Source: Betaproteobacteria bacterium (GTDB lineage Bacteria > Pseudomonadota > Gammaproteobacteria > Burkholderiales > SG8-41). From it: DNA of 15,290 nucleotides. The stretch spans positions 1 to 15,290 of the forward strand of contig JANXSE010000232.1 of NCBI GenBank assembly GCA_025356695.1. Direction: 5' to 3'. This document shows positions 85 to 15,290 of this stretch, one piece after another. The first letter of the stretch is position 1; the number at the start of each line of letters is the position of its first letter. Below the pieces are notes generated by a model, which saw nothing but the letters and a program-made list of their open reading frames with translations, had not been told where the DNA came from and ran no database searches. The translations under genes and the position numbers were made by a program.

Positions 85-93
85 GTCGCGGCG

Positions 94-1719: not shown

Positions 1720-1728
1720 ACGAGCGAA

Positions 1729-1758: not shown

Positions 1759-1779
1759 GAAGATTGCGACTGCGGCGGA

Positions 1780-2451: not shown

Positions 2452-2486
2452 GTTGTTTCCCCCCGTGGTTGATTTGCGGAACCGCG

Positions 2487-2515: not shown

Positions 2516-2545
2516 ACAAGCCCGCTACGGAGAAATGCTTCGCTG

Positions 2546-3331
2546 CTACTTGAAGCGATAACTCAGGGAAATAAATGCGGTGTCCATGTTCTTGCGGCCG
2601 ACGATCGGGCTGTCGCTAACGGCGCCGGCCAGCCATTTGTGGCGCAGGTAGAAATTGAGGTGGTAATCCTTCGTCAGCGTGGTATCGACGAGAACGGCAA
2701 GAAAGGGGTTGAAAGCGCCGCCCGACTGGTAGGCGGCGTAGCGGCTGGCCGCCGACTCGGCGGCGGACACGCCGTAGTAATAGCTGACATATTGTCCGGA
2801 CAGATATTCGGCGCCGGCCTGCGGATAAAACACAAAGCGGGAGCTTTTCAGTTCGCCGACGTAAATTGCCTCGAACAGGTTACCGCGCGATTTGTTGACG
2901 TCGTGGAACGCGTTGACAAAAAAACCGCCGATCGGTGTTTCCTGAAAGGTGCCAATGCCGAGCGGAATCGAATCCTTGCGGTCGGTCAGGCCCTGCAGGC
3001 TGGCAGTGTCGGCCTTGAAGCCGTCGAGCGTGACGCGGCCGACCAGTTCCAGATGGCCGTAGCCCATCGGCACGGTCTTGATGCCGAAGGTATCGATGCG
3101 GACGAAGGCGCGGCCGTAATCGAAATAGCCGTAGGGCAGAACCGCCGCCGGTTCGCTTTTGCCGCGCAGGATGCTGCGCGTGTAATAACCGCCGAGCCCG
3201 ATGTCGCCGTCGATCCGCAACGGAAATTCGGCGGCTGCCGGTGTTGTCTGCGCGCAGACGGTGGCGCTGCACAATAGCAGGGCGGCCAGCGCGGGGAAAA
3301 AACGGCATTCAACGATACGGAAAAATGGCAT
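2546..3331 (-). CDS. MipA/OmpV-family outer membrane protein
   Basis: A 261-residue outer-membrane beta-barrel. After a signal peptide ending near CSATVCAQ, the mature part has alternating strands rich in aromatics. These include a first strand IDGDIGLGGYYTRS, the LPYGYFDYGRAFVRIDTFGIK region, the AGAEYLSGQYVSYYYGVS segment, where family members carry a periplasm-facing loop, and a C-terminal DTAFISLSYRFK strand. These features fit the MipA/OmpV family, whose E. coli member MipA scaffolds the murein polymerase PBP1B and hydrolase MltA. Other members are porin-like and stress- or antibiotic-induced. The C-terminus ends FK instead of a bare aromatic, slightly unusual for a BAM substrate. ATG 3331 is preceded by a modest GGA. 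The gene is divergent from the PAS sensor-like gene, a neighbour that may be regulatory. Confidence 0.8.
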   Translation of the reverse strand: MPFFRIVECRFFPALAALLLCSATVCAQTTPAAAEFPLRIDGDIGLGGYYTRSILRGKSEPAAVLPYGYFDYGRAFVRIDTFGIKTVPMGYGHLELVGRVTLDGFKADTASLQGLTDRKDSIPLGIGTFQETPIGGFFVNAFHDVNKSRGNLFEAIYVGELKSSRFVFYPQAGAEYLSGQYVSYYYGVSAAESAASRYAAYQSGGAFNPFLAVLVDTTLTKDYHLNFYLRHKWLAGAVSDSPIVGRKNMDTAFISLSYRFK

Positions 3332-3564
3332 GGCGGGTTCCAGGACGCGGGCTTCAGGCGGACGTTAGACGGAAAAGCCGAGTGTAACCGAACCCCATGC
3401 GCGGACGCAGACAAAAATGCTGTCACATCAAGCCAGGACGCGTCTGCGTGGCAGGTGAGGCGCGAGTGCGGGCACCGGTTGCGCCTTCTCTTTGCATGAG
3501 TCCTCCGCTAAGATGCAGGCGGTTCCATTCGATTCCTGGTCTTTGGCCTGCCGGCGCCGTCTTC

Positions 3565-4398
3565 ATGAATATCCCGAATGCAAAAGAGAACGCGTTTCCC
3601 GTCCGGAATGCGCGTCGATGGTCGCCCGGCGGATGGCGGCCGTACGCCGGTGCGCTTGCCGCGGTGAGTCTTGCGTTCCTGATCCGGTTTGAGCTGCATC
3701 CGGTGCTGCAGTCCGATTATCCCTTCCTGTTGTTCACGGTGGCGTCCCTGCTGGTCGAGTTTTTCCTCGGCCTTGGTCCCGCGCTGATGGTGGTCGCCAT
3801 CGGCCTGTTGCTGGGGACGTATTTTTTTGTGCCGCCGTACGACTCGATCTTTGTGCCGGAACCGCTGGATATTTTCTTTGTCGGCGGCTATCTCCTCATC
3901 GCCCTTCTCGCGATATTTCTGATCGAAGACCTGCAGCGTTCGAAATATGCGTTGAGCCTGATGAAAGACGTCCTGCAATCGCGTCTGGAGATGCTCGAAC
4001 GCAGTAACACGGAACGCACTCTTGCCGAGCGCGCGGCGCAGGAGAATTCCGAGCGCTTTCGTTCGCTGGCGGCGAGTTTTCCGCAGATACTCTACATGCG
4101 GCGGGTTGACGGTGAGTTCGAATACCTCAACGAGCAGTTCTATCGTTACACCGGACTTGCACCGGGGGCGCTCGGCGACGCGGGGTGGATGCTCGCAATG
4201 CATCCGGAAGACACGGCGGTGGTGACGGAATTGTGCGATCGCGTCGGCAGCAGCGGCGTTGCGGAGGCATTGAAATTCCGCCTGCGCATGGTCGACGGAT
4301 CATACGAAGAGTTTGCAGGGCCGCTTACCCGTCTTGAAGGCAAATACGGCAAGGACATCAAATGGGTCGGCAGCATCGTCAAGCCGCGCGTTTCCTAG
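3565..4398 (+). CDS. DUF4118 membrane-anchored PAS-domain protein without an output domain
   Basis: A 277-residue sensor-like protein. Four membrane helices lie at about residues 24-41, 52-69, 72-89 and 102-120, with the TYFFVPP signature after the third, as in the DUF4118 (KdpD-type) membrane module. Residues 121-160 form a charged, probably coiled-coil linker rich in Glu/Arg. A PAS fold follows from about 161 to the end (FRSLAASFPQILYMRR..., GLAPGALGDAGWMLAMHPED, FRLRMVDGSYEEF). In known proteins DUF4118 plus PAS normally leads into a histidine kinase or GGDEF domain. Here the frame stops straight after the PAS domain. ATG 3565 is chosen because the upstream in-frame extension to 3397 is Cys/Arg/Pro-rich and unlike a protein N-terminus. 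Its output may be protein-protein contact or the acyltransferase encoded next. Confidence 0.75.
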   Translation: MNIPNAKENAFPVRNARRWSPGGWRPYAGALAAVSLAFLIRFELHPVLQSDYPFLLFTVASLLVEFFLGLGPALMVVAIGLLLGTYFFVPPYDSIFVPEPLDIFFVGGYLLIALLAIFLIEDLQRSKYALSLMKDVLQSRLEMLERSNTERTLAERAAQENSERFRSLAASFPQILYMRRVDGEFEYLNEQFYRYTGLAPGALGDAGWMLAMHPEDTAVVTELCDRVGSSGVAEALKFRLRMVDGSYEEFAGPLTRLEGKYGKDIKWVGSIVKPRVS

Positions 4399-4444
4399 CG
4401 CCGCGGCTGCGCAACGCAGACGCGCTGCAGAACAGGCAGGCGCC

Positions 4445-5455
4445 TTGAACGGGCGCGGTGCGATCCGGATTGTTGACACGGATGCCTGTCCCGAGGACTT
4501 TGCCGCCGCGGAGCCGGAAGATCACCGCTTCCTGCAGGCATTTCAGCGCGCCGGCATTGGTGATTTTCGCTGCGGATATCTTCTCGCCTATCGCGGCAAA
4601 ACGCGGGTCAGTGTGGTGCCGTACTTCACCACGGATTACCGCCTGAACACCCTCGTCACCAATCCATTGCTCAAGTGGTTGCTGGCGCCGTTGGGGTTCA
4701 AAGTGGCCTGCATCGGCCACCCGTCAACCGATGTCGGCAGAATCGAGGGAGAGATTTCCGCGGATATTCTGCAGGCGGTGAACGCCGTCCTGCGCAGAAA
4801 AGCGGCGGCCATCGCCTACAAATGGTTTGCCGTGGCGCTGCCGCTCGATGATTTTGTCGAGGCCGCCGGCCTGCCGGTCAACGTATTGAAAGCAGACGGC
4901 GCCTATCCCGCGTCGCTCGACCGCAACCGGCGCAAAAATATCCGCAGGAAAATCAAAAAAAGCGCCGCGCTGGAGTTCCGGGAACATACCCCCGAAAATC
5001 CGCTGCCCGACGCGCTGATTGGCGAAGTGCACCATTTATACGAGGCAACCGCGGCCCGCGCCGATCTGCATTTTGAACGGCTCAACGAGGAATATTTCCG
5101 GCTGACCGCACCGATCAGCACTTACATGCTTGCGTATGAGGACGGGCGCCTGATCGGTTTTGTGCAATGGTTGCGCAAAGGCAGCAGAATGTCGGGCAAA
5201 TACGTCGGCATGGATTACGCGCGTAACCGGCAATATGACTTGTACTTCGGCATCGTCCTGCAATCGGTGGTGCGCGGCATTCGCGACGGTGTGCGCGAAT
5301 TCGATCTGGGGGTTGGCAGCTACTACTCGAAGCGCATGATCGGCGCTGGTCTGCTGCCGACGCGGCTGTACTTCCGGCACCGCCAACCAGTGGTGCAGTG
5401 GTTGCTCGCACGCTGCAAATTCCTGCTCGAACCGTCGGCGGAGGAACTCGCCTAG
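4445..5455 (+). CDS. GNAT-family acyltransferase (BioF2/FemAB-like, Acetyltransf_6)
   Basis: A roughly 336-residue cytoplasmic protein of the tandem-GNAT type found in FemAB/BioF2-like acyltransferases. The N-terminal half contains PYFTTDYRLNTLV and a KACIGHPSTD-like stretch (VACIGHPSTDVG). A basic segment, SLDRNRRKNIRRKIKKS, is typical just before the second lobe. The C-terminal lobe shows YMLAYEDGRLIGFVQW, a GNAT core strand pair, then KYVGMDY...DLYFGIVLQ and FDLGVGSYYSKRMIG. Family members transfer acyl or aminoacyl groups, for instance to cell-wall or surface polysaccharide precursors; the acceptor is not deducible here. The start is uncertain. TTG 4445 has AGG four bases upstream, whereas ATG 4313 would overlap the PAS gene and add 44 low-complexity residues. 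It lies 46 bases behind the PAS gene, so one transcript is likely. Confidence 0.75.
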   Translation: MNGRGAIRIVDTDACPEDFAAAEPEDHRFLQAFQRAGIGDFRCGYLLAYRGKTRVSVVPYFTTDYRLNTLVTNPLLKWLLAPLGFKVACIGHPSTDVGRIEGEISADILQAVNAVLRRKAAAIAYKWFAVALPLDDFVEAAGLPVNVLKADGAYPASLDRNRRKNIRRKIKKSAALEFREHTPENPLPDALIGEVHHLYEATAARADLHFERLNEEYFRLTAPISTYMLAYEDGRLIGFVQWLRKGSRMSGKYVGMDYARNRQYDLYFGIVLQSVVRGIRDGVREFDLGVGSYYSKRMIGAGLLPTRLYFRHRQPVVQWLLARCKFLLEPSAEELA

Positions 5456-5476
5456 GCGATCCCGCCGTTCCACAAC

Positions 5477-6343
5477 TCAGCGCCGTGCGGCGACTGCGGT
5501 TTTTTTGTCGTCGCCGGCCATGGCGGCGTGTTGCGGTAGACCGCTCTGCAGGCCGCCGATGCTGGCCTGGAAAAAATTGTTCGTCTCCCAGGCCACCGCC
5601 TCGCGTTCGTTGTCGATGGTGATCATGTGGTAGCTGTCACCGAGCAGGACCTTGCGCCGGATCGGCGAGCCGATGCGCTTCATGACGTATTCCGCGCTCT
5701 TCGGGCTGGCGGTTTCGTCGTCGATGGCGTGGATCACCAGCGCGGGCGCAGTGACATGATGCAGATTGCGCATGACATGGCGGCCCAGCAGTGTCGCCTG
5801 ATAGACATGGTCCATCGTGATGCGCGCTGCGCCGGCTTCGGAAAAGCCCCGTCGCATCGCGCGCGCAATGCGCTGGCGGATCTGGACGTTCTTGATGCCG
5901 TAGGGTTCCTGTTCGGTGAACGAGTACAGATGGCGCACCGGCGTGTGGAACCACAGCGGCATGAGAAAACGGTACCAGGGGATCGACCAGCCGTCGTAAA
6001 AAAGCGTCGTCGACAGCAATGACAGTGCGGCGATTTCGCGCTGGCGTTCTGCCGCCAGCGAAAGGGCCAGCACCGCGCCACTGCAAAGGCCGCCCACGCA
6101 AACGCTGCGATACTCGCGCTTCAGGCGGTCGAACACCGTCAGTGCCTGTGCCTGCCAGTCGCGAAAATCGCCGGCGTCCGTGCCAAAGCCGAAACCGCGT
6201 ATGTGGGGAACTTCGACACTGAAGCCGCGCTGGCGCAATGCCATCGCCATCGAACGCATTTCCAGCGGACTGCTGGCAAGGCCGTGCAAAAGAAGCACTG
6301 CATCGGCGCCTGCGGCAAACTTGCTCGGTTGAAGCTGGGACAT
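5477..6343 (-). CDS. Alpha/beta hydrolase, carboxylesterase/lipase type, with Cys nucleophile
   Basis: A 288-residue cytoplasmic alpha/beta hydrolase similar in plan to Est30/monoacylglycerol-lipase-type carboxylesterases. Visible elements are the oxyanion motif LLLHGLASSPLEMR (H20-G21), IRGFGFGTDAGDFRDW, the nucleophile elbow GLCSGA (residues 86-90 are LCSGA), an acid loop HAIDDETASP (Asp208/209) and the catalytic His in DSYHMITID (His239). The expected Ser of the G-x-S-x-G elbow is Cys87, as in dienelactone hydrolases, so a Cys-His-Asp triad is suggested. ATG 6343 is chosen for its AAAGG six bases upstream; an in-frame ATG at 6385 adds 14 residues. It converges with the acyltransferase gene, 21 bases separating the stops. 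The substrate is unknown; a short ester or lactone is plausible. Confidence 0.8.
   Translation of the reverse strand: MSQLQPSKFAAGADAVLLLHGLASSPLEMRSMAMALRQRGFSVEVPHIRGFGFGTDAGDFRDWQAQALTVFDRLKREYRSVCVGGLCSGAVLALSLAAERQREIAALSLLSTTLFYDGWSIPWYRFLMPLWFHTPVRHLYSFTEQEPYGIKNVQIRQRIARAMRRGFSEAGAARITMDHVYQATLLGRHVMRNLHHVTAPALVIHAIDDETASPKSAEYVMKRIGSPIRRKVLLGDSYHMITIDNEREAVAWETNNFFQASIGGLQSGLPQHAAMAGDDKKTAVAARR
5478..5506 (+). terminator. Probable intrinsic terminator for the PAS/acyltransferase transcript
   Basis: A stem CAGCGCC (5478-5484) and GGCG-A-CTG (5489-5496, one bulged A) closes the loop GTGC. CGG and seven T (5500-5506) follow. It lies 22 bases past the acyltransferase stop and inside the end of the opposite-strand hydrolase gene, where the T-run encodes Lys-Lys. 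Confidence 0.45.
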
Positions 6344-6425
6344 GCTGCCTTTGCTTATGCGCCCGGCATGGCCGGAATGGATCAATTGCGGTAAAAAACA
6401 TTCGCAAGAGGTTGAATTGCGACGA

Positions 6426-6454
6426 AGAATACCAACACCGGCCCAATTTCACAA
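6426..6454 (-). promoter_or_regulatory. Candidate promoter of the alpha/beta hydrolase gene
   Basis: Minus-strand TTGTGA (6449-6454) and TATTCT (6426-6431) are spaced by 17 bp, each matching four of six consensus bases. They sit in the otherwise featureless 239-bp region 6344-6582, about 80 bases upstream of the hydrolase ATG. I see no other gene or repeat in that region. Confidence 0.3.
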
Positions 6455-6582
6455 TACGTATCCAGGCATTTTTTGAGGGCGATCAAGGATTTCTGTGGCG
6501 TGGCCGTGCGCCGCAAGAAGCGAATTTTGCGATTTGGCAGTTTTGCCTTGGTGCAGCGACGAATGCCGTTGCTACAGTGCGT

Positions 6583-7806
6583 TCAGTTGCCGGGTGTCGA
6601 TTCGTGCAGGCGGTTGGTTTTCCACAGCGCTGGAAACCATTGGATCCACAGTGCAGCCACCAGCAGCGTGCCGGCACCGCCGATCACCACCGATGCGACT
6701 GTGCCCAGCCACGCAGCGAGCAGACCCGATTCGAACTGGCCGAGATGATTCGAGGTGCCGGTAAAAATCGAGCTCACCGCGGCGACGCGACCGCGCATGC
6801 CGTCGGGCGTTTGCAGTTGAACGAGCGAAGTGCGGATCACCACGCTCACCATGTCTGCCGCGCCCAGCACCATCAGGGCTGCGAAGGAAAGTGCAAACGT
6901 TTCCGATAACCCGAAGACGACGGTCGCCGCGCCGAAGGTTGCCACCGAGGCAAACATCACGCGCCCGACATGGCGGTCGAGCGGCAGTCGCAGCATTACC
7001 AGCGAGATCAGCACCGCACCGAGGGCGGGCGCGGCGCGCAGCAGGCCCAGGCCGGTGGGGCCGGCGTTGAGGATGTCGCGCGCGTAAACCGGCAGCAGGG
7101 CGGTGGCGCCGCCGAGCAGGATCGCGAAAAGATCGAGCGAGATTGCACCAAGTATCACGCGCTGGCTGCGGATGTAGGCGACGCCGCCGAACAGCGATTG
7201 CAGCGTCATCGGCTCGCGCGACGGCAGCGCGCTGGTCGCGAGTTTGATGCTGGCGAGCATGAGGCCGGCGCACAGAAAACACAGTGCGCTTGCCGCATAC
7301 GCCGGCACCGGTCCGACCATATAGATCAGGCCACCCAAGGCAGGCCCGGCGATGATAGCCGCCTTGCGCACGCCGGAATTCCAGGCGATGCACTGCGGCA
7401 GTATGCTGCGCTCGACCAGTGTCGGCATCAGCGCGCGCAGCGCCGGCTGCTGGAAAACGTGCGAGCAGCCGAAGGCGAAGACCGCCGCGTAAATGATCGT
7501 GCTGGTCAGCACGCCGAGAAAACTGAGAACGGCAATCAGCGCGATCGCGCTGAATTTGACCAGCTGGCAGAAGAAGGTGATGCGCCGGCGGTCGAAGCTG
7601 TCGGCAACGTGGCCGGCGACGAGTGCGAGCACGAACTGCGGCAGGAACTGCGCGAGCCCGACGAGGCCGAGGGCGAGCGCGCTGTTGGTGATATCGTAAA
7701 TCTGCCAGCCGACCGCGACGAGAAAAATTTCCTGGCCGAGGGCGAGCAGGGTCTCGGCGATCCAGTAGCGCGTGAACGCGGCATTGCCCGGCGGCGTAAT
7801 GCCCAA
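6583..7806 (-). CDS. MFS permease (EntS/MFS_3-like)
   Basis: A 407-residue integral membrane protein of the major facilitator superfamily with about twelve hydrophobic segments. The inter-helix 2-3 motif appears as GHVADSFDRRRI, matching the G-x3-D-x-x-x-R-R pattern. A cytoplasmic central loop follows around SALPSREPMTLQSLFGGVAYIRSQR. The spacing and the PDGMRGRVAAVSSIF segment in the second half (the family's RGR-motif before helix 11) resemble the enterobactin exporter EntS/MFS_3 branch, so export or uptake of an organic acid-like molecule is possible. The start is TTG 7806, one base after the stop of the binding-protein gene (TGA, then C, then TTG), which implies translational coupling. 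There is no good Shine-Dalgarno sequence, so the exact start is uncertain. It is the last gene of the dehydroquinase-like/binding-protein operon. Confidence 0.85.
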   Translation of the reverse strand: MGITPPGNAAFTRYWIAETLLALGQEIFLVAVGWQIYDITNSALALGLVGLAQFLPQFVLALVAGHVADSFDRRRITFFCQLVKFSAIALIAVLSFLGVLTSTIIYAAVFAFGCSHVFQQPALRALMPTLVERSILPQCIAWNSGVRKAAIIAGPALGGLIYMVGPVPAYAASALCFLCAGLMLASIKLATSALPSREPMTLQSLFGGVAYIRSQRVILGAISLDLFAILLGGATALLPVYARDILNAGPTGLGLLRAAPALGAVLISLVMLRLPLDRHVGRVMFASVATFGAATVVFGLSETFALSFAALMVLGAADMVSVVIRTSLVQLQTPDGMRGRVAAVSSIFTGTSNHLGQFESGLLAAWLGTVASVVIGGAGTLLVAALWIQWFPALWKTNRLHESTPGN

Positions 7807-7807
7807 G

Positions 7808-8728
7808 TCAGGACTTCAGGGCCGCGAACGCATCGGGAAAACGCGCGCGTGCTTCGTCGTGCAGCGGCTTGACTGCTGCAACGAACGCAGAGCGTTCAAC
7901 GGCGCTGAGCCTGACCACTTCGCCACCGGCGTTCTTGATCGACTGTTCGGCAATCTCTTCTTCGCGCACCGCGAGATCGCGCTGCACCAGCACGGCCTCG
8001 CGCACGGCCGCCATCATCGCGTCCTGCAATGCCTTGGGCCAGCTTTCAAACGCGGCGCGGTGACAATAGATGCCGCGCGACAGGTAGCTATGGCCGGTCA
8101 GCGTGTGGAACCTGTGGAATTTGTGTACGCCGTAATCGACGGTGTTGGCGAGCGGGTTTTCCTGCGCGTCGAGTTGGCCGGCGGTGATTTGCGCGATTGC
8201 CGGTTTCAGATCCATGATCATCGGCGTGGCGCCGAGCAGCTCATAGGTACGCGCGTGCATCCGGCTCGGCAGTGAACGGATCGACATGCCCTGCATGTCG
8301 GCCGGCAGATGGATGGCACGCAGGCGGTTCGAGACGTGGCGGTAACCGTTCTCGAAGTAACCGAGCATTTTGTAACCGGGCACGCGCTGTTCGATCACGC
8401 GCGTCATATAAGCGCCGAATGCGCCGTCCATCGCCGCGCGCGCCTCTTTAAGGCTGGCGAAGAGAAAAGGCAGATCGGCGAATTCGAGTTCGGGCACGCG
8501 TTCGGTCAAATAACTCGTCGACTGATAGGCCAGGGTCAAGAGGCCGCGCTCGCTCATCCACAGGACTTCCTCGCCCTTGTAGCCGAAATCCATGATGTTC
8601 CACACGTACTTCACGTCGACGTCGCCGCCGAACTGTTTAAGCAGCCGCTCGCCGATGATTTTCAGCGCGCGGCTGTGCGTGGTGGTGGACGGGCCGTAGC
8701 CGCCCATGACAATTTGCGTGGTCATCAT
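7808..8728 (-). CDS. DctP-type TRAP substrate-binding protein lacking a signal peptide
   Basis: A 306-residue protein with the DctP (TRAP transporter solute receptor) fold. It has an N-terminal lobe GPSTTTHSRALKIIGERL, the LPFLFASLKEARAAM region, YFENGYRHVSN, the PADMQGMSIRSLPS stretch containing the conserved ligand-carboxylate Arg, and LDAQENPLAN, matching the family's DGQENP motif. Family members are normally secreted to the periplasm. This one begins MMTTQIVMGGYG directly at strand 1, and no start codon exists further upstream in frame to provide a signal. AGGA sits six bases before ATG 8728, supporting the start. No dctQ or dctM membrane gene is present. It follows the dehydroquinase-like gene by 23 bases and is coupled to the MFS gene. 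It may be a cytoplasmic ligand-binding protein; its function is unknown. Confidence 0.8.
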   Translation of the reverse strand: MMTTQIVMGGYGPSTTTHSRALKIIGERLLKQFGGDVDVKYVWNIMDFGYKGEEVLWMSERGLLTLAYQSTSYLTERVPELEFADLPFLFASLKEARAAMDGAFGAYMTRVIEQRVPGYKMLGYFENGYRHVSNRLRAIHLPADMQGMSIRSLPSRMHARTYELLGATPMIMDLKPAIAQITAGQLDAQENPLANTVDYGVHKFHRFHTLTGHSYLSRGIYCHRAAFESWPKALQDAMMAAVREAVLVQRDLAVREEEIAEQSIKNAGGEVVRLSAVERSAFVAAVKPLHDEARARFPDAFAALKS

Positions 8729-8751
8729 TGTTCCTGCATCAGGAGTTGTTG

Positions 8752-9189
8752 TTAAGCAGCCGCCATGATTTCTTTGAGGCCGCGCATGGCAAGGTAATAA
8801 CCGTAAATGCCGAAGCCGGTGACGACGCCGCGTGCTGCACGCGCGACCTCCGAGTCGCGGCCGCGCCGCGCCGGATTCGAGATGTGCAATTCGATCACCG
8901 GGAATTTTACCTGCGCAATTGCCGCCACCAGCGCCGGATAGCCCGTGGTGTAACCGGCCGGGTTGATGATCGCCGCGGCGACATTGTCGGCATCGAAGGC
9001 GGCGTAGAACTTGTTGATGACCTCGCCCTCGATGTTGGAGTGAAAGATCTCGACCTCGAAACCGGTTTCGCCGGCGTAGCGGCGGATGTGCTCGTCGTAT
9101 TCCGGCAGCAGCATCTTGCCGAAGACTTCGATCTGCGATTTGCCGCGCATATTCATGCCGGCGCCGTGAACAACGAGTAATTTGGCCAT
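8752..9189 (-). CDS. Type II 3-dehydroquinate dehydratase-like protein, catalytic residues altered
   Basis: A 145-residue protein with the length and flavodoxin-like plan of AroQ: a first strand and loop LLVVHGAGMNMRG, FEVEIFHSNIEGEVIN, AAIINPAGYT, VIELHISN, and the closing TGFGIYGYYLAMRGL. Against the family pattern NGPNLNLLGxREPxxYG, the loop reads HGAGMNMRGKSQIEVFG. The catalytic Arg of REP is Ser18, the catalytic Tyr is Phe23 and the GPN Asn is Gly11. The His of GAYTHTS is Thr82, and the HAREEFR region is shortened and rewritten. Asn76, Glu100 and His102 remain. Dehydroquinate dehydration is therefore doubtful. ATG 9189 is preceded by GGGA six bases upstream; the open extension to 9285 is not protein-like. 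It is first in a three-gene operon and divergent from the dehydrogenase gene. Confidence 0.8.
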   Translation of the reverse strand: MAKLLVVHGAGMNMRGKSQIEVFGKMLLPEYDEHIRRYAGETGFEVEIFHSNIEGEVINKFYAAFDADNVAAAIINPAGYTTGYPALVAAIAQVKFPVIELHISNPARRGRDSEVARAARGVVTGFGIYGYYLAMRGLKEIMAAA

Positions 9190-9221
9190 GTTTTTCCCGA
9201 AGGTTGCGATTGATGGATCTA

Positions 9222-9236
9222 CCGGTTTGCGACCGG
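9222..9236. promoter_or_regulatory. Small perfect inverted repeat in the shared promoter region
   Basis: CCGGT (9222-9226) and ACCGG (9232-9236) flank a 5-bp spacer, 32 bp upstream of the dehydroquinase-like ATG, in the 177-bp region shared with the divergent dehydrogenase. It could be an operator or a leader hairpin. The arms are short and chance is possible. Confidence 0.25.
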
Positions 9237-9323
9237 AGTTTTCCGAGGCGGCTAGATTAACGCACTTTGCATTGTTTGCGCGCATGGCGTCCGCTGCGAT
9301 GCACGCGTCGCGGTGCTTGGCAT

Positions 9324-9329
9324 TAGAAT
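9324..9329 (+). promoter_or_regulatory. Candidate -10 box of the dehydrogenase gene
   Basis: TAGAAT lies 37 bases upstream of ATG 9367, leaving room for a leader carrying the strong Shine-Dalgarno sequence AGGGGAGAAGG. No convincing -35 box is visible at the expected spacing, so an activator may be needed. Confidence 0.35.
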
Positions 9330-9366
9330 ACCAACAGCAAATTCAAAATACCCAGGGGAGAAGGCA

Positions 9367-10248
9367 ATGAAACAGCGCATTGGTTTCGTCGGCGTCGGTT
9401 TGATGGGCGGCTGGCTGGCGCGCCATCTGCTGGCGGCGGGTTATCCGGTGATCGCGCACGATCTCGACCCGGCCAAGGTCGATGCGATCGTCGCGGTCGG
9501 AGGCAAAAAATTCGCCTCGCCCGCGCAGATCGCCGCCGAGGTTGACGTCATCATCCTGTCGCTGCCGAATTCGAAAATCGTCGATGACGTGGTGCGCAAT
9601 TCGTTGAAGCTCTTCGAGACCGGGCGCAAGGGCCTGATCCTGCTTGATGCCTCGACCGCCGACCCCGTGATGTCGAAGGCACTGGCGGCCGAACTCGCCG
9701 CCGGCGGCATCGAGATGGCGGATTGCACCATCAGCGGCACCAGCGAGATGGCGCGCGTGAAAGACACCGTCTTCATGTTCGGCGGCAAAAAAGAAATTTA
9801 CGAGCAGTGCATTCCGCTGTTCCAGGCGATGGGGCGCGAATGGGTCTACATGGGCGCGCACGGCAACGGTGCGACGATCAAGCTGGTGGTCAACCTCGTG
9901 CTGGCGTTGAACCGCATGGCGATGGCCGAGGGCCTGACGCTGGCGAAGAAGGCCGGGCTCGATGCGGCGCAGACGCTCGAAGTGCTGAAGAAATCCGCCG
10001 CCGGCTCGAAGTGCATGGATCAGAAGGGCAAGTATATGGTCGAGGAAAACTACCTGCCGCCGATCGGCCACCTTCACATTCACTACAAGGACGTGCGCGC
10101 AATGCTCGCACTCGGCGCCAGCCTCGACTGCCCGCTGCCGCTGCTGGCGATCAACGCGCAGGCGCTGGCTTCGCAGATGGCGAAGGGGCGCGGCGACTGG
10201 GACAGTTCGGCGGTGATGCAGTTCTACAAGGAGCTCGCCAACATCTGA
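9367..10248 (+). CDS. 3-hydroxyisobutyrate dehydrogenase-family (beta-hydroxyacid) oxidoreductase
   Basis: A 293-residue NAD(P)-dependent dehydrogenase of the HIBADH/GLYR family. The N-terminal Rossmann motif GFVGVGLMGG (residues 6-15) is followed by Asp32 after strand 2 (HDLDP), which suggests NAD over NADP. The substrate-side segment DCTISGTSEMA (119-129) replaces the usual D-x-P-V-S-G-G. The catalytic Lys172 sits in GNGATIKLVVN with Asn176, and the C-terminal helix domain has HYKDVRAMLALG. Family enzymes oxidise beta-hydroxyacids to semialdehydes or reduce tartronate semialdehyde. ATG 9367 has AGGGGAGAAGG upstream; the in-frame ATG-like start at 9313 would skip it. It is divergent from the dehydroquinase-like operon and ends just before a palindromic element. 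The changed substrate motif means the substrate should not be assumed to be 3-hydroxyisobutyrate. Confidence 0.85.
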   Translation: MKQRIGFVGVGLMGGWLARHLLAAGYPVIAHDLDPAKVDAIVAVGGKKFASPAQIAAEVDVIILSLPNSKIVDDVVRNSLKLFETGRKGLILLDASTADPVMSKALAAELAAGGIEMADCTISGTSEMARVKDTVFMFGGKKEIYEQCIPLFQAMGREWVYMGAHGNGATIKLVVNLVLALNRMAMAEGLTLAKKAGLDAAQTLEVLKKSAAGSKCMDQKGKYMVEENYLPPIGHLHIHYKDVRAMLALGASLDCPLPLLAINAQALASQMAKGRGDWDSSAVMQFYKELANI

Positions 10249-10254
10249 CGCAAG

Positions 10255-10345
10255 CGTAGGGCGGAGAAGCGCAGCGCCTTCCGCCGTATGTTCGGCCTTA
10301 GAAAAACCGCATCTGGCGGATTATGCTTCGCTAATCCGCCCTACG
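10255..10345. repeat. REP/MITE-like palindromic element
   Basis: A 91-bp element between two converging genes. The outer ends CGTAGGGCGGA (10255-10265) and TCCGCCCTACG (10335-10345) are perfect 11-bp inverted repeats. Each half is itself palindromic: the right half is GGCGGATTA, 8-nt loop, TAATCCGCC (perfect, 10315-10340). The left half, GGCGGA...TCCGCC (10260-10285), is imperfect. The GTAGGGCGGATT...AATCCGCC type of sequence recurs as an intergenic repeat in many proteobacteria. The hairpins may also stop transcription from both sides. No other copy is seen in the window. Confidence 0.7.
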
Positions 10346-10354
10346 GGTTGGTTG

Positions 10355-11338
10355 TTACTCAACTTTGATGTTCGCTTTCTCGATCACGTCTTTCCACATC
10401 GGCACTTCGCGCGCAATGCGCGCGCGCAGCGACGCCGGGCCGCCGGCGATGACGCCGAAGCCCAGGGTCTTCAGCTGGTCGCGTACTTCCTGACGTTTGA
10501 GGATCGTCGTCGTCTCGGCGGCGAGGCGATCGATGATTTCCTGCGGCGTGCCGGCCGGTGCGAGCATGGCGACGAAGGTTTCCGATTCGGTGCCCGGGAA
10601 TCCCGCTTCGGCGAGCGTCGGTACATTGGGCAGTTCCGACCAGCGTTCCGTGCCGGTCTGCACGAGAACACGGATCGCACCCGAGTTCACGTGCTGCATG
10701 AGACCGAGAATGTTCACCGAGCCCACGTGCGTCGCATTGCTCAAGATGGCGAGGATCGCTGGCCCACCGCCCGGATAGGGCACGTGCGTGACGTTGATTT
10801 TGGCGCGCGTTTTGAACAACTCCATGCCCAGATGCGGGGTGACGCCGATGCCGCCGCTCGAATAATTGAGGTAATCGGGTTTGCTGCGCGCCAGCGCCAG
10901 CATTTCATTGAGGCTGTTGATGCCGGAGTCGGCACGTGTGGCGATGACATTCGGCGAGGCGCCCGAATCCGAAATCGGTGCGAAGTCCTTGATCGGGTCG
11001 AAGCCGGCGTTCTTGTAAAGGCTGCTGTTGACGACGATCACGCTTGACGTTAGCAGCAAGGTGTAGCCGTCGGGCCTGGCGCGCGCCACCGCGCCGATGC
11101 CGATGTTGCCGCCGGCACCCGGGCGGTTTTCGATCACCACTGTTTTGCCGAGTGCCTCGGTCAGCGGCTTGATCAGCACTCGGCCGAGTGAATCGCTGGC
11201 ACCTCCGGGTTGAAAGGGCACGATGATGGTAATCGGGCGCTCGGGCCAGGCCGCGGCGAATAACTGCAGCGGGCAGGTCAGCACCGCCAGTAAAAATGCC
11301 AAAGTGGCGCCGTGCCCTGCCTTCATGAATTGCGACAT
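10355..11338 (-). CDS. Bug/TctC-family substrate-binding protein (second)
   Basis: A 327-residue periplasmic Bug receptor. The signal peptide is about residues 1-29 (hydrophobic core LAFLLAVLTCPLQLFAAA). The mature protein starts WPERPITIIVPFQPGGASDSLGR, followed by IENRPGAGGNIG, DGYTLLLTSS, a GASPNVIATRADS stretch, NYSSGGIGVTPHLGMELF and VPYPGGGPA, ending with RARIAREVPMWKDVI. ATG 11338 has GGAGGGG just upstream, so this start is firm. No TctA or TctB gene is near. The gene is divergent from an MFS permease across 184 bp, which may be the functional partner in regulation though not as a classical Bug partner. It is closely related to the third Bug receptor, and both end RARIAREVPMWK-x-VI. 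Confidence 0.92.
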   Translation of the reverse strand: MSQFMKAGHGATLAFLLAVLTCPLQLFAAAWPERPITIIVPFQPGGASDSLGRVLIKPLTEALGKTVVIENRPGAGGNIGIGAVARARPDGYTLLLTSSVIVVNSSLYKNAGFDPIKDFAPISDSGASPNVIATRADSGINSLNEMLALARSKPDYLNYSSGGIGVTPHLGMELFKTRAKINVTHVPYPGGGPAILAILSNATHVGSVNILGLMQHVNSGAIRVLVQTGTERWSELPNVPTLAEAGFPGTESETFVAMLAPAGTPQEIIDRLAAETTTILKRQEVRDQLKTLGFGVIAGGPASLRARIAREVPMWKDVIEKANIKVE

Positions 11339-11364
11339 TTCCCCTCCGGGTGTTGTTTGTCTGA

Positions 11365-11370
11365 TTTATA
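11365..11370 (-). promoter_or_regulatory. Candidate -10 box of the second Bug receptor gene
   Basis: Minus-strand TATAAA lies 26 bases upstream of the ATG, leaving a short leader that carries GGAGGGG. No good -35 box is seen at 16-18 bp. Confidence 0.4.
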
Positions 11371-11437
11371 GCTGAAGGTTACTGCATGCGCCCCGCAAGT
11401 TCAAAGCGCAGCGGCGGGTGGCCGGCGGGCGGCGATA

Positions 11438-11477
11438 TGACATGCGTCAAATCCGGCGCAGGCGCATTTGCTAATAT
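11438..11477 (+). promoter_or_regulatory. Candidate operator and -10 box upstream of the MFS gene
   Basis: TGACATGCGTCA (11438-11449) is an inverted repeat TGAC-N4-GTCA, and TAATAT (11472-11477) is a plausible -10 box. The dyad covers the place where a -35 contact would lie, which would suit an activator or repressor. The expected start of transcription is close to the ATG at 11488. Confidence 0.35.
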
Positions 11478-11487
11478 CGACGCGAAC

Positions 11488-11526
11488 ATGTTCCCGACCC
11501 CACGCATCCGCCGGCAGCCGCGATGA
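11488..11526 (+). CDS. Candidate 12-codon leader ORF coupled to the MFS gene
   Basis: ATG 11488 opens a 12-residue frame, MFPTPRIRRQPR, whose TGA stop (11524-11526) overlaps the MFS start codon as ATGA. It begins 10 bases after a TAATAT -10 box, so its mRNA would be nearly leaderless. The MFS gene itself has no clear Shine-Dalgarno sequence, so reinitiation from this leader is a plausible way to start it. The peptide has four Arg, including a pair. There is no homology evidence; the case is purely positional. Confidence 0.35.
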   Translation: MFPTPRIRRQPR

Positions 11527-12749
11527 GTGCGGCGCCCGCTTTGCCGGTCGCCGGACTGTCGCGCGACGCGGCGACCACGGTGTCGCTGGTGTTCCTTTGT
11601 AATTGCGTCAATGCGCTCTCCGTCGGCGGCATCGCGCTGTTTTTGCCGCTGATCCGTGAAGACCTGCACATCACGTTCACACAGGCGGGCATGCTGTCGG
11701 TGGCGGCCACCGCGACCTATGCGCTCGGCCAGATCCCGGCGGGCTTTCTGACCGACCGCTTCGGGCCGAAGCGCCTCTTCTTTCTCGGTGTGACCGGTTC
11801 CACGTTGTTCATGCTGCAGTTCGGTTTCGTCGGCAGCTACGAACACGCGCTGGTCAATCAGATGCTGACCGGCACCTTCCGCGCGTTTTTGTTCGCGCCG
11901 GGGCTGACGCTGTTATCGTCGTGGTTTCCGCCCGAGCGCCGCGCCACCGCCATGGGCCTCTATATCGCCGGCAATTTCACCGGCAACATCATCCTCTCGC
12001 TGATCGGGCCGTTGATGGTGGCCTCACACAGCTGGCGTTTTCCATTCATTGTGTTCGCGCTGCTCGGTGTCGCGGTAGCAGTGGTGTTTCTGTTGTTCGC
12101 AAAAGAGAAAACGCGCCGCGCCGCGCGCGACCCGCTCAAACTCAGCGATATTGCGCAGCTTGCGCGTTATCGCATCGTCTGGGTGGCCAGCGCGCTGCAG
12201 ATCATCCGCATGGGGCCGGTGGTCGGCATCAGTTTCTGGCTGCCATCGTTTCTCGTCGCCGACCGCGGCTTGACGCTGACGACCGCCGGGCTGGTGACGG
12301 CGATGGGCGCGGCGTTGAGCGCGCCGTCGAATGCGATCGGCGGTTACGTTTCAGATCGCCTGAACAATCCGCCGCTGGTGATCGGCGGCGCGCTGACGAT
12401 ACTCGCCACCACTGCGTTTCTGCTGGTGCAGATCGAGTCCTTGCCGCTGCTCCTGCTGGTGATTGCGGTGAATTCGATTTTCGCGCAGTTTTATTTCGGC
12501 CCGCTGTTTCTGGTGCCGGTCGAAGTGCTCGGTCAGCGCACCGCCGGCATTGTGACCGGCTTCTGCAATTTGTTCGCCAATGCGGGGTCGGTGGCTTTTG
12601 CTTTTTCGCTCGGCGTGATCAAGGACCGTACCGGATCGTTTGCGTGGGGCTTCGGCGTGATTGGCGTGGCCTGCGTCACCGGCGTGCTTTTGAGCTTCGT
12701 GCTGGCGCGCATGCGCAGCCACGCGCTGGCGGCGCAGACGCAGGCCTAG
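11523..12749 (+). CDS. MFS permease (organic anion transporter type)
   Basis: A 408-residue twelve-helix major facilitator. The signature loop between helices 2 and 3 is GFLTDRFGPKRLF, an exact G-x-L-x-D-R-x-G-x-x-R match. Helix 4-5 has FLFAPGLTLLSSWFPPERRATAMGLY, characteristic of the ACS/nitrate-nitrite and sialate-like MFS branches that take up organic anions. A Lys/Arg-rich central loop (KEKTRRAARDPLKLSDIAQ) separates the halves, and the second half repeats a GGYVSDRLNNP motif. It is divergent from the second Bug receptor gene, which suggests shared control and a carboxylate-like substrate. No Shine-Dalgarno sequence is evident, and the start overlaps the stop of a short leader ORF. It converges on the cupin gene. 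Confidence 0.88.
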   Translation: MSAAPALPVAGLSRDAATTVSLVFLCNCVNALSVGGIALFLPLIREDLHITFTQAGMLSVAATATYALGQIPAGFLTDRFGPKRLFFLGVTGSTLFMLQFGFVGSYEHALVNQMLTGTFRAFLFAPGLTLLSSWFPPERRATAMGLYIAGNFTGNIILSLIGPLMVASHSWRFPFIVFALLGVAVAVVFLLFAKEKTRRAARDPLKLSDIAQLARYRIVWVASALQIIRMGPVVGISFWLPSFLVADRGLTLTTAGLVTAMGAALSAPSNAIGGYVSDRLNNPPLVIGGALTILATTAFLLVQIESLPLLLLVIAVNSIFAQFYFGPLFLVPVEVLGQRTAGIVTGFCNLFANAGSVAFAFSLGVIKDRTGSFAWGFGVIGVACVTGVLLSFVLARMRSHALAAQTQA

Positions 12750-12753
12750 TCTG

Positions 12754-12776
12754 CGCCGCCGTTGCACGCGGCGGTG
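12754..12776. terminator. GC hairpin between converging genes, possible terminator
   Basis: CGCCGCCG (12754-12761) pairs with CGGCGGTG (12769-12776), including one G-T pair, around a 7-nt loop, five bases after the MFS stop. No T-run follows, so it is at best a weak or factor-assisted terminator. Confidence 0.3.
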
Positions 12777-12780
12777 ACGG

Positions 12781-13239
12781 CTATTTGTTCGCCTCGTCCT
12801 TTTCGAGCGGCGTATTGCCGCTGGGGCCGATTGCATAGAAATACAGCACCGCGCCTTCGCCCCGGGTCATGCCGAAGTGCGGCTGGTTGGCCGGTTCGGT
12901 AAAGAAAGTGCCGGCCGGATGCGCATGCAGTTTCTTTTCGTCGTATTTGTCGCCGTAGCCGATGTAATGCACGCCGGATACCACCATGCCGTAGCGCTGG
13001 TCCGGGTGCTTATGGGCGAGCGCCTTCGCATTCGGCGGCCATTTGACGAGATACAGATAAGGGCCGGCCTTGCCCGGGTGGCCGAGCAGATAGGCGTTTT
13101 CGCGGCCGCTGGCGGATTTCTCCCATTTCATTGCCTCGGGTTTGACCAGCGTCACGCCGGGCGGCAGTTCGTCGGCGGCGCGTGCGGTGAAGGCGGCAAG
13201 GCACAGCAATGCGGCAGCGGCAATCATGAAGTGCTTCAT
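12781..13239 (-). CDS. Secreted small cupin protein
   Basis: A 152-residue exported protein: signal peptide MKHFMIAAAALLCLAAFTARA, then a single cupin barrel. Cupin motif 1 is represented by AHKHPDQRYGMVVSG (His76, His78) and motif 2 by HPAGTFFTEPANQPHF, giving a three-His metal site without the usual motif 1 Glu. Similar periplasmic cupins (DUF4437-like and related) bind a divalent metal; no reaction is assigned for this branch. ATG 13239 is preceded by GGGGAG. An in-frame start at 13323 would place an Arg-rich tail before the signal peptide and is rejected. It is transcribed divergently from the DUF3301 gene from an unusual symmetric promoter. Confidence 0.75.
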   Translation of the reverse strand: MKHFMIAAAALLCLAAFTARAADELPPGVTLVKPEAMKWEKSASGRENAYLLGHPGKAGPYLYLVKWPPNAKALAHKHPDQRYGMVVSGVHYIGYGDKYDEKKLHAHPAGTFFTEPANQPHFGMTRGEGAVLYFYAIGPSGNTPLEKDEANK

Positions 13240-13285
13240 GGTTCTCCCCTCGTCTTGATTTGCGACGCGAACGCGCCGTCGCCGC

Positions 13286-13320
13286 CATTCTAGTCCGCGT
13301 GGTGGCGGCGCGCTAGAATG
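13286..13320. promoter_or_regulatory. Symmetric divergent promoter pair
   Basis: CATTCTAG (13286-13293) and CTAGAATG (13313-13320) form a perfect 8-bp inverted repeat with a 19-bp spacer. Each arm contains a TAGAAT -10 box pointing outward, one for the cupin gene (-) and one for the DUF3301 gene (+). On the + side only nine bases separate the box from ATG 13329. The -35 zone of each overlaps the -10 of the other, so the two promoters probably exclude each other or share a protein. Confidence 0.5.
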
Positions 13321-13328
13321 CACGCGCG

Positions 13329-13661
13329 ATGTCGATATTCGAAATTTCCGTGCTGGTGATTCTGGCGGCGCTGGGCTGGTTGTGGTTCGACAGCCTGCAG
13401 GCGCGCGAGGCCGCGCTGCGCGCTGCGCGCAACGCCTGCACCGCCGACGGGTTCATGCTGCTCGACGATACGGTGGCGATCGCTTCGCTGAAACCCGCGC
13501 GCAACGAGGACGGTCGTCTCATGTTGCAGCGTAGCTATGATTTTGAATACAGCGACACTGGCAACAACCGTCTGACCGGCGGCATTGTGTTGCTGGGCCA
13601 TCGTGTGATCATGCTGAATGTCGGATCGCGCGAGGGCGGCAACGTTTATACGTTGCATTGA
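13329..13661 (+). CDS. DUF3301 family membrane-anchored protein
   Basis: A 110-residue protein. The first 20 residues form one membrane helix (SIFEISVLVILAALGWLWF), followed by DSLQAREAALRAARNAC and then a small soluble domain with LLDDTVAIASL, QRSYDFEYSDTGNNRLTGGIVLLG and a short C-terminus. This arrangement, especially the DFEYSDTG and LLDDTVA motifs, matches DUF3301, a betaproteobacterial/gammaproteobacterial family of unknown function with an N-out or N-in single helix. The start is firm although there is no Shine-Dalgarno sequence, because the -10 box TAGAAT lies nine bases upstream and the mRNA is probably leaderless. The Bug receptor gene follows after a short gap and may be co-transcribed. 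Confidence 0.8.
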   Translation: MSIFEISVLVILAALGWLWFDSLQAREAALRAARNACTADGFMLLDDTVAIASLKPARNEDGRLMLQRSYDFEYSDTGNNRLTGGIVLLGHRVIMLNVGSREGGNVYTLH

Positions 13662-13686
13662 CGAACGAAATAACATGGGTGCGACA

Positions 13687-14640
13687 ATGAAATTGAAATC
13701 AATTTTTGCAGCTGCACTGTTTCTGATTGCGACGGCGGCTGGCGCGGCGTATCCGGAACGCCCCGTCACCATCATCGTGCCGTTCGCCGCCGGCGGCGGC
13801 AGCGACATCGTCGCCCGCATCATTGCCAAATATCTGACCGAGTCGCTCGGCCGTGCGGTGCTGGTCGAGAACAAACCGGGCGCGGGCGGCAACATCGGCA
13901 TCATTGCCACGGCACGCGCCAAACCCGATGGTTATACCTTTCTGGTGGTGTCGAGCGTGCTGGTGGTGAACCCCAGCCTCTATAAACAACCGTTCGATCC
14001 GTTCAAGGATTTCATGCCGGTGGTGGACATCGGCGCCTCGCCCAATGTCATCGTCACGCGCGCCGATTCAAATATAAAAACGGTGGCCGAACTGATTGCG
14101 CTGGCGAAAAAAAGCCCCGACCTGCTGAATTACTCGAGTCCGGGCAGCGGCACCTCGCCGCATCTGGCGACCGAACTGTTCAAGTTCCGCGCCAAAATCA
14201 ACCTCACGCACATTCCGTACGGCGGCGCCGGCCCCTCGCTGCAGGCGGTGTTGAGTGGCGCGACGCAACTGGGCGCTTTCAGCCTTGGCAGCGCGGCCAC
14301 GCACATGAGTGCCGGCACCCTGCGCGCGCTGGTGCATACCGGCGCCGGCCGTATGGCGGATTTCCCGGCGGTGCCGAACATGACCGAGGCGGGTTTCCCG
14401 AATTCGGATTCCGAAACCTTCCAGGTGCTGGTCGCACCCGTCGGCACACCGCAGGACATCATCGACCGCGTGTCGAAGGAAGTGATCGCCATCGTCAAAC
14501 GACCGGACGTGCGCGAAACGTTGCGTCAGACCGGCTTCGGTGTGATCGGCGGTGATGCCGAAACTTTGCGCGCGCGCATCGCGCGCGAAGTGCCGATGTG
14601 GAAGGAAGTGATCGACCGTGCGGGGATCAAGCCGGAATAG
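13687..14640 (+). CDS. Bug/TctC-family substrate-binding protein (third)
   Basis: A 317-residue periplasmic receptor with signal peptide MKLKSIFAAALFLIATAAGA, then AYPERPVTIIVPFAAGGGSDIVAR, VENKPGAGGNIG, DGYTFLVVSS, GASPNVIVTRADS, NYSSPGSGTSPHLATELF and IPYGGAGPS, ending in RARIAREVPMWKEVIDRAGIKPE. More than half of the positions look identical to the second Bug receptor, including long matching stretches in both lobes, so the two probably arose by duplication and bind related carboxylates. ATG 13687 is preferred because it directly opens a canonical signal peptide; ATG 13675 is four codons earlier and equally close to the DUF3301 stop. No TctAB genes are present. Confidence 0.92.
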   Translation: MKLKSIFAAALFLIATAAGAAYPERPVTIIVPFAAGGGSDIVARIIAKYLTESLGRAVLVENKPGAGGNIGIIATARAKPDGYTFLVVSSVLVVNPSLYKQPFDPFKDFMPVVDIGASPNVIVTRADSNIKTVAELIALAKKSPDLLNYSSPGSGTSPHLATELFKFRAKINLTHIPYGGAGPSLQAVLSGATQLGAFSLGSAATHMSAGTLRALVHTGAGRMADFPAVPNMTEAGFPNSDSETFQVLVAPVGTPQDIIDRVSKEVIAIVKRPDVRETLRQTGFGVIGGDAETLRARIAREVPMWKEVIDRAGIKPE

Positions 14641-14658
14641 GCCGGCGTCGCGCGAACG

Positions 14659-15174
14659 TCAGTGCATCAGTTTGTGGTCGCCGCCGGCATCTGCCGGCGG
14701 TGTCGTTTCCGTCACCCCTGCCGGCGCGATCATCCACTTGGCATCGTTCTGCAAACGGTCGAGCAGCACACCGACCTGTTGCGCGAGCTGATGCGCGAAT
14801 TTCAGATTGACGTTGGCACCGGTGGGTGTGCCGAGATCGAGCGAGACGCCGTGTTCGATCGGCGTCAGGTTTAGTTTGACAACGAGTACCGGCGCCTCGC
14901 CGAGCGGAAAGTTGGTGCCCGGCACGAATTCATCGTTGAGTTTGGTCTGTTGCTGAACAGCCTGTTGCTCGAATTCGGTGACCGCCTGCGCGACCTGCGG
15001 CGGAAACTTTTTGGCGACGGTGCGCGCGGCGATGGTGCGGTTGGCGGCGAGCAGGTGCGCGGTGACCGGGCGCGTCAGCCAGAAACGGAATTCCTCACCT
15101 TCATCGGTGCTGACGCGCAGCAGGATGCGGTCTTCCGCCGGAACGTAACCGCCGTTGAGTTGTTTGATGCCCAT
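14659..15174 (-). CDS. Uncharacterised soluble protein
   Basis: I do not recognise this 171-residue protein. It has no signal peptide or membrane helix. It begins MGIKQLNGGYVPAEDRILLRVSTDEGEEFRFWLTRPVTAHLL, a beta-rich start, then a helical, Gln-rich middle (FEQQAVQQQTKL), a strand pair VLVVKLNLTPIEHGVSLDLG, an amphipathic helix FAHQLAQQVGVLLDRLQ, and an Ala/Pro/Gly-rich tail. The codon pattern and lack of low-complexity stretches support a real gene. ATG 15174 is preceded at nine bases by a TAAAAT -10 box on its strand, with no Shine-Dalgarno sequence, suggesting a leaderless mRNA. It converges with the third Bug gene (18 bases between stops) and lies downstream of the globin-like gene on the same strand. 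Confidence 0.7.
   Translation of the reverse strand: MGIKQLNGGYVPAEDRILLRVSTDEGEEFRFWLTRPVTAHLLAANRTIAARTVAKKFPPQVAQAVTEFEQQAVQQQTKLNDEFVPGTNFPLGEAPVLVVKLNLTPIEHGVSLDLGTPTGANVNLKFAHQLAQQVGVLLDRLQNDAKWMIAPAGVTETTPPADAGGDHKLMH
14681..14700. other. Perfect GC hairpin near converging gene ends
   Basis: CCGCCGGC (14681-14688) and GCCGGCGG (14693-14700) form a perfect 8-bp stem around ATCT, 40 bases past the third Bug stop and inside the end of the opposite-strand gene (coding for PPADAGG). There is no T-run, so termination is uncertain. Confidence 0.3.
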
Positions 15175-15183
15175 GGTGCGCCT

Positions 15184-15189
15184 ATTTTA
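15184..15189 (-). promoter_or_regulatory. -10 box nine bases before the ATG of the uncharacterised gene
   Basis: Minus-strand TAAAAT (15184-15189) is followed by nine bases and then ATG (15174-15172), the same geometry as the DUF3301 promoter. A good -35 box is not evident. Confidence 0.4.
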
Positions 15190-15212
15190 ACCCGCACCGG
15201 AGCGGTTCTGCT

Positions 15213-15290
15213 TCAGGTCATGTGGGCGGCCATGAAGTCGTAGGCTTCCTGCCAGGCCTGCCTGACTTCCGGCGTGAACTCGCGGCCGAG
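15213..15290 (-). CDS. Globin-like protein, C-terminal end only (partial)
   Basis: The reverse strand is open from the right edge to TGA 15215-15213, giving 25 residues: LGREFTPEVRQAWQEAYDF followed by MAAHMT. The LGxEFTPEVxxAWxxAY pattern is the last helix of bacterial globins and of the globin domain in flavohaemoproteins and globin-coupled proteins. The haem-binding His lies outside the window. The fragment ends with the stop, so a flavohaemoprotein is unlikely and a single-domain globin is favoured. It is upstream of, and on the same strand as, the uncharacterised gene. Confidence 0.5.
   Translation of the reverse strand, partial: LGREFTPEVRQAWQEAYDFMAAHMT

Follow-up and report, generated by a model that had tools for sequence, protein, structure and literature searches.

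This study concerns a gene on a betaproteobacterial contig (JANXSE010000232.1, assembly GCA_025356695.1), of which positions 1 to 15,290 were analysed and are referred to as the window. The gene encodes a protein with the fold of type II 3-dehydroquinate dehydratase (AroQ or DHQ2, here also called type II dehydroquinase), and its neighbours are the genes of a DctP-family protein and an MFS_3 transporter on one side and of a divergent dehydrogenase on the other (Table 1). To judge from the aligned residues, the base half of the AroQ active site is gone from this protein and the acid/carboxylate half remains. We also observed that the gene belongs to a widespread family, which forms one clade and is under purifying selection.

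Table 1. Genes and active-site segments of the window, with the basis of each assignment.
Feature	Position	Strand	Basis
AroQ-fold protein with converted active site, 145 amino acids and stop	8752..9189	-	open reading frame, Pfam, NCBIfam, alignments, AlphaFold2, PDB matches
Codons 11-12; Gly11 replaces AroQ Asn12 (enolate-water site)	9154..9159	-	alignment
Lid loop, codons 18-23; Ser18 replaces Arg19, Phe23 replaces catalytic Tyr24	9121..9138	-	alignment
Codons 100-113; Glu100-x-His102 and rewritten loop SNPARRGRDS, Arg109 kept, Arg112 segment deleted	8851..8892	-	alignment
DctP-family (PF03480) protein without signal peptide (by eye), starting 23 bases after the AroQ-like stop	7808..8728	-	Pfam
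MFS_3 / EntS-like transporter	6583..7806	-	Pfam, NCBIfam
Divergent beta-hydroxyacid dehydrogenase, tartronate-semialdehyde-reductase-like, below NCBIfam cut-offs	9367..10248	+	Pfam, NCBIfam

The type II dehydroquinase fold, which a preliminary description made from the sequence alone had proposed, was confirmed, as PF01220 (DHquinase_II) matches residues 3-137 with 108 bits against a cut-off of 23.3, the AlphaFold2 model of the window protein reaches a predicted local distance difference test score of 93, and the PDB matches are to the AroQ fold. PF01220 is the single domain that the Pfam scan detected, and the protein resembles the type II dehydratases (PF01220, TIGR01088) in fold, length and order of secondary structure. 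With TIGR01088, the AroQ model, it scores 105.0 bits against a cut-off of 169.85, and it stays below every cut-off of the five NCBIfam AroQ models (TIGR01088 and four subfamily models), as do all five of the other family members that were scored. The four canonical controls, taken as the copies from genomes whose family gene was scored in the same test, each pass at least two of these cut-offs; three pass TIGR01088, and the fourth (L104) is 2.5 bits short of it, yet passes two subfamily models. The homologue search returned 4891 proteins at E <= 0.001, canonical AroQ possibly included, of which the best 120 were examined, and the database names on the family's best matches, where given, are mostly 3-dehydroquinate dehydratase. 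A tblastn search of PLSDB with the window protein gave 242 records, all below 60% identity and the best among the matches listed at 38%, so that no close plasmid relative was found there.

In DHQ2, Tyr24 abstracts the C2 proton; it is positioned by Arg19 and deprotonated by Asp88' from the adjacent subunit. His101 donates a proton to the C1 hydroxyl as it leaves; the carboxylate is bound by Asn75, Ser103 and the backbone, the ring hydroxyls by His81, Arg112 and Asp88', and a water at the C3 carbonyl is held by Asn12 (PMC6011038). Nearly all activity is lost in alanine mutants of N12, R19, Y24, N75, E99, H101 and R108, and none is detectable in H81A or R112A (PMC10772564). Our alignment to solved AroQ proteins and 36 canonical sequences, in which AroQ residues carry the numbers of the M. 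tuberculosis protein, bears out the replacements given in the preliminary description, namely Asn12 by Gly11, Arg19 by Ser18, Tyr24 by Phe23 and His81 by Thr82, and adds one that it did not contain, Asp88 by Ala89. The three residues of proton abstraction are thus Ser18, Phe23 and Ala89 in the window protein. Of the ring-hydroxyl residues, His81 is replaced and Arg112 falls within a three-residue deletion of the HAREEFR loop, which is rewritten as had been described, with Arg108 kept as Arg109. Neither of these two losses is decisive alone, since His81 is absent from seven and Arg112 from four of the 36 canonical sequences; Arg19, Tyr24 and Asp88 are kept in all 36. The carboxylate site and the acid (Asn75, Ser103, His101 and Glu99) are present as Asn76, Ser104, His102 and Glu100, and the earlier reading of a retained Asn, Glu and His at the back of the site holds. 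The SN-x-EG and G-x-G-x-x-x-Y cores are likewise shared with AroQ.

A scan of GTDB genome contigs left 80 of 102 confirmed loci, with L001-L074 in the family and L075-L080 outside it; L074 ends before the lid loop, L002 and L047 duplicate other rows, and L072 was set apart as a variant, with HGLGMNMRG and with Gly, Val, Phe and Val in the places of Asn12, Arg19, Tyr24 and Asp88. All 71 distinct family sequences have Phe for Tyr24, lack Arg19 and Asp88, and show the Arg112 segment deleted. Among the window protein and its 120 best listed homologues, Gly11 and Phe23, as well as Asn76, Glu100, His102 and Arg109, occur in 121 of 121, with Ala, Ser or Thr at position 18. The family has near-invariant positions of its own, including Ala10, Gly11, Arg15, Phe23, His50, Tyr62, Ala89, Pro106 and Gly110, and the motifs GAGMNMRG and SNPxRRG are new in it. 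An N-terminal motif (HGAG/AGMN for the family, GPN for the canonical set) served to separate the two sets, which largely builds in the change of Asn12 to Gly; the remaining columns are unaffected. Across nine family pairs the ratio of non-synonymous to synonymous substitution (dN/dS) was 0.02-0.20. In a tree made by a quick method from 75 rows with every second family sequence, the family and L072 stand on one branch (length 1.13, SH-like approximate likelihood ratio test 99), with the warnings that columns are few and that long branches meet. The 71 sequences and the dN/dS values rule out an oddity of a single genome or decay, and the residues conserved in the 121 sequences, together with dN/dS, rule out chance or sequencing error.

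According to their records, the members come from betaproteobacterial metagenome-assembled genomes, Reyranella, Acetobacteraceae/Rhodospirillales, Plastoroseomonas, Granulosicoccaceae and SAR202/Dehalococcoidia. In the order to which G004 belongs, an exact DNA motif was found in at least 7 of 300 genomes, a lower bound because the protein motif is present in 46 of the 71 family sequences and G004 itself carries the gene, yet was missed. The titles of several metagenome-assembled genomes (L001, L003, L015, L017, L047, L054 and L057; Bordetella parapertussis, Chitinophaga pinensis, Asaia bogorensis) look like those of misnamed environmental bins, by their isolate labels and gene content.

Other dehydroquinase genes were searched for in 38 genomes of relatives, the window's own not among them, and 37 of these carry the family gene. 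A second PF01220 gene with canonical scores (164.8-210.9 bits) accompanies it in 33 of the 37, and one further genome (G030) has a type I gene instead, so that another dehydroquinase gene is present in 34, where the refuting case named in the preliminary description, a sole dehydroquinase, is thus not seen. A second dehydroquinase elsewhere in the genome, to which the preliminary description had looked, was therefore found in most relatives, and the profile search detected none in G009, G026 and G029; G010, a near-identical relative of G009, has a second gene, which makes incompleteness of G009 likely. The second copies from 26 of the 33 genomes were compared and keep Arg19, Tyr24 and Asp88, and the remaining seven are known by score alone. 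A biotin motif follows the canonical copy, as in aroQ-accB, at nine of ten betaproteobacterial loci, the tenth being cut off by the end of its contig; no motif matching the pattern was found at the other 21 of the 31 canonical loci checked. In most relatives, the family gene would accordingly appear, on sequence grounds, not to be the dehydroquinase of the genome.

Dehydroquinase activity of the family is very unlikely, because the machinery that makes and uses the tyrosinate has been lost. That the protein might still be a dehydroquinase with another base, for instance in quinate catabolism, would agree with the kept fold and acid side, with third PF01220 genes in some genomes, with the database names and with the three genomes lacking another detected gene. 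We regard this as highly improbable, considering that Arg19, Tyr24, Asp88, Asn12, His81 and Arg112 are lost together, that alanine mutants of N12, R19 and Y24 are nearly inactive and H81A and R112A inactive (PMC10772564), that all NCBIfam cut-offs are failed and that 34 of the 37 genomes have another gene. The presence of both genes in 33 genomes could also suit a non-catalytic subunit that mixes into the canonical AroQ dodecamer and tunes it, the more so as true dehydroquinases borrow Asp88 from the adjacent subunit (PMC6011038). However, a mixed site would require Tyr and Asp88', both of which the family protein lacks, the two genes lie at separate places in the searched genomes, and catabolic genes often adjoin the family gene, which leaves this idea with hardly any probability.

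A second divergent PF01220 clade was also noticed, comprising a third copy in Reyranella (L110, 4194-4628; L111) and plasmid genes of Cupriavidus (L118), Antarctobacter (L119) and Ponticoccus (L120). Like the family, it has an altered Arg112 loop, with the same three-residue deletion in L110, L111 and L118 and another rewriting in L119 and L120; unlike the family, it retains Asn12, Arg19, Tyr24 and Asp88. The plasmid copies have neighbours of catabolic type, namely a short-chain dehydrogenase/reductase (SDR), a thiamine diphosphate (ThDP) enzyme, a tripartite tricarboxylate transporter or a CoA transferase. L110 passes one of the five NCBIfam AroQ cut-offs (NF003807), and its neighbours in Reyranella look housekeeping-like by eye.

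Neighbouring genes were counted in 66 of 81 neighbourhoods, nine having been dropped as the family gene was missed by the picking of open reading frames and six as non-family; clusters were named from one representative each, and at L025, L030, L073 and L074 another overlapping reading frame marks the position of the family gene. The counts were SDR 19, HpcH/HpaI aldolase 14, hydroxypyruvate/2-oxo-tetronate isomerase (Hyi/OtnI) 11, NHL propeller 10, ThDP E1-like 9, TauD-like 8, CoA transferase 6 and window-type reductase 5. At L014, a CoA transferase, a sugar-acid-dehydratase-like enolase, the AroQ-like gene and HpaI run in one direction, and several SAR202/Dehalococcoidia loci have Hyi/OtnI (its representative above the NCBIfam cut-off), a ThDP enzyme, the AroQ-like gene and a cyclophilin in a row. 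By eye, 16 hand-picked genomes gave at least five with HpaI no more than 3 kb from the family gene, where 0.24 would be expected, and five with NHL at that distance against 0.12 expected, contrasts that are inflated by kinship among the genomes. The canonical gene, which 15 of these genomes have, showed no NHL and, among the matches listed, no HpaI at this distance. These recurrent neighbours point to small hydroxy-/oxo-acid metabolism. The acid-sugar catabolic enzymes among them (OtnI/Hyi, GarR/GlxR, HpaI/GarL) have folds unrelated to AroQ and are proposed as partners, not relatives. From the loss of the parts specific to the dehydroquinase reaction, together with small-acid catabolic genes that are often adjacent, the family probably has another function.

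NHL-repeat propeller genes (cluster c3, for example L046:4413-5366) occur near the family gene in Alphaproteobacteria, Betaproteobacteria and Chloroflexota. Two apparent gene fusions, suggested by the lengths of the reading frames, were rejected: in that with a CoA transferase (L025, L030) the overlap is out of frame, and the transferase has its own gene downstream of it, and in that with MFS_3 (L073) the transporter frame is garbled and looks frameshifted.

In the window, the DctP-like protein matches PF03480 with 152 bits. It starts MMTTQIVMGGYGP, in which no export signal peptide is seen by eye, and the DctP-like proteins of L001 (10986-11903), L003 (10464-11381) and L004 (11439-12365) start in the same manner, also by eye. 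For want of a signal peptide this is not an ordinary tripartite ATP-independent periplasmic (TRAP) uptake operon, and the adjoining permease is MFS_3/EntS-like, not a TRAP permease; the binding protein named in the preliminary description is thus not a normal periplasmic receptor. Conservation of a DctP-family protein that lacks a signal peptide, in an operon with MFS_3, suggests that this DctP-fold protein is cytosolic. Among solved structures its best matches are 4p9k/4pak and 4xeq, which we take to be D-erythronate/pantoate binders. Pantoate and D-erythronate are named among TRAP ligands in a review, whose relevant section does not carry those PDB codes (PMC5812351). For the dehydrogenase of the window, the best solved relative is 1vpd, a tartronate semialdehyde reductase. 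L003 has the gene order of the window (AroQ-like, DctP-like, MFS_3), an Amidohydro_2-type gene intervenes in L001 and L004, and L002 has the Amidohydro_2-type gene and no DctP-like gene. A clade sharing the substitutions exists as foreseen, but its proposed tie to DctP and MFS genes is no general rule, a DctP-like gene of this kind being confined to the window and its nearest relatives L001, L003 and L004, with other neighbours elsewhere. Three TctC/Bug-like receptor genes were also seen around the operon, at 10355-11338 (Pfam) and at 94-1176 and 13618-14640 (by eye).

The MFS_3 gene adjoins the family gene in two phyla, downstream in Betaproteobacteria and upstream in Chloroflexota (L065-L069, L073), and the proteins of the window and L067 are 27% identical. 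MFS_3 lies within 2 kb in 8 of 12 genomes, those eight having been picked since MFS_3 was seen there and the other four having none near. An enzyme for making a metabolite that MFS_3 exports, rather than for degradation, could be read from this arrangement, which we consider improbable: two MFS_3 clusters appear in 9 of the 66 neighbourhoods (only some clusters were scanned for MFS_3), and aldolase, isomerase and TctC-type receptor genes are commoner near the family gene or comparable.

The best reading, which we favour by a modest degree, is an enzyme other than a dehydroquinase that acts on a small hydroxy- or oxo-carboxylate. The protein would be a type II dehydroquinase paralogue that has given up the dehydration of 3-dehydroquinate. 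Its kept half (Asn76, Ile103-Ser104, His102 with Glu100 as acid, and Arg109) may grip a carboxylate with an alpha-hydroxyl, and the replaced half would be that of tyrosinate formation and use (Arg19, Tyr24, Asp88', Asn12) and of ring-hydroxyl binding (His81, Arg112, Asp88'). Citrate binds the dehydroquinase pocket, in its usual mode with the 3-carboxyl and 3-hydroxyl mimicking the C1 contacts of dehydroquinate (PMC10772564), and so an alpha-hydroxy or related carboxylate may be expected as the ligand of the family. In a cytosolic pathway of small-acid catabolism, a 2-hydroxy- or 2-oxo-carboxylate would be held in the old carboxylate pocket, where His102/Glu100 could serve as acid/base for dehydration, hydration or isomerisation, with an HpcH/HpaI aldolase, a hydroxypyruvate/2-oxo-tetronate isomerase or tartronate-semialdehyde-type reductases as possible partners. 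More tentatively still, and at somewhat less than even chances, this would be a so far undescribed family of enzymes built on the type II dehydroquinase fold, hidden under the aroQ name and carrying out a new step in Proteobacteria and SAR202/Dehalococcoidia, such as the dehydration or isomerisation of a C3-C4 hydroxy-/oxo-acid (tetronate). A tetronate or tartronate step is our boldest guess; it draws on Hyi/OtnI, HpaI, the reductase and the ligands ascribed to the DctP relatives.

Several observations weigh against a new enzyme of this kind. Nothing in the converted site obviously takes the place of the tyrosinate base, and the published Arg19 and Tyr24 mutants, in the portion of PMC10772564 concerned with them, are to Ala and not to Ser and Phe as in the window protein. 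No neighbour is universal across the 66 neighbourhoods, the counts are phylogenetically non-independent, and partners vary by clade, with HpaI in Betaproteobacteria, Hyi and the ThDP enzyme in SAR202, and accD-folC-like genes in Acetobacteraceae (by eye). MFS_3 transporters in two phyla fit product export equally well, and three of the 37 genomes yielded no other dehydroquinase gene. The missing base would also fit a pseudoenzyme, that is, a non-catalytic binder or regulator that senses a small carboxylate and controls neighbouring genes or enzymes; the kept pocket, its occupation by citrate in dehydroquinases (PMC10772564) and the varying neighbours would all suit such a sensor. This we hold to be rather unlikely, as the His102/Glu100 dyad and Arg109 are kept throughout, perhaps needlessly for binding alone, the Pfam scan shows one domain alone, and the near-invariant new Arg15, His50 and Tyr62 suggest a rebuilt site. 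The conserved acid dyad and the new near-invariant residues favour a new reaction over mere binding. The repurposed fold of the preliminary description is well supported by the coherent clade, the converted site, the purifying selection and, by profile score, the other dehydroquinase gene in 34 of 37 genomes.

Type II dehydroquinase is a drug target and, to our knowledge, a single-function fold. The fold is already known, and what is new is the active-site conversion, its spread and its genomic context. No description of the family appeared in the titles and abstracts of the open-access PMC literature searched, where many results were unrelated, making this weak evidence of absence. A genome survey of Dehalococcoidia lists the type II gene among the shikimate genes of marine cluster II, a count that may or may not include the family (PMC7506110). 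The neighbouring genes make the function of the family testable. If the reading is true, a large conserved family with a second function would show how the site splits, the acid/carboxylate half being kept and the base half replaced, and the automatic aroQ annotation would be corrected in environmental genomes, SAR202 included, where presence of the gene is taken to imply the shikimate pathway.
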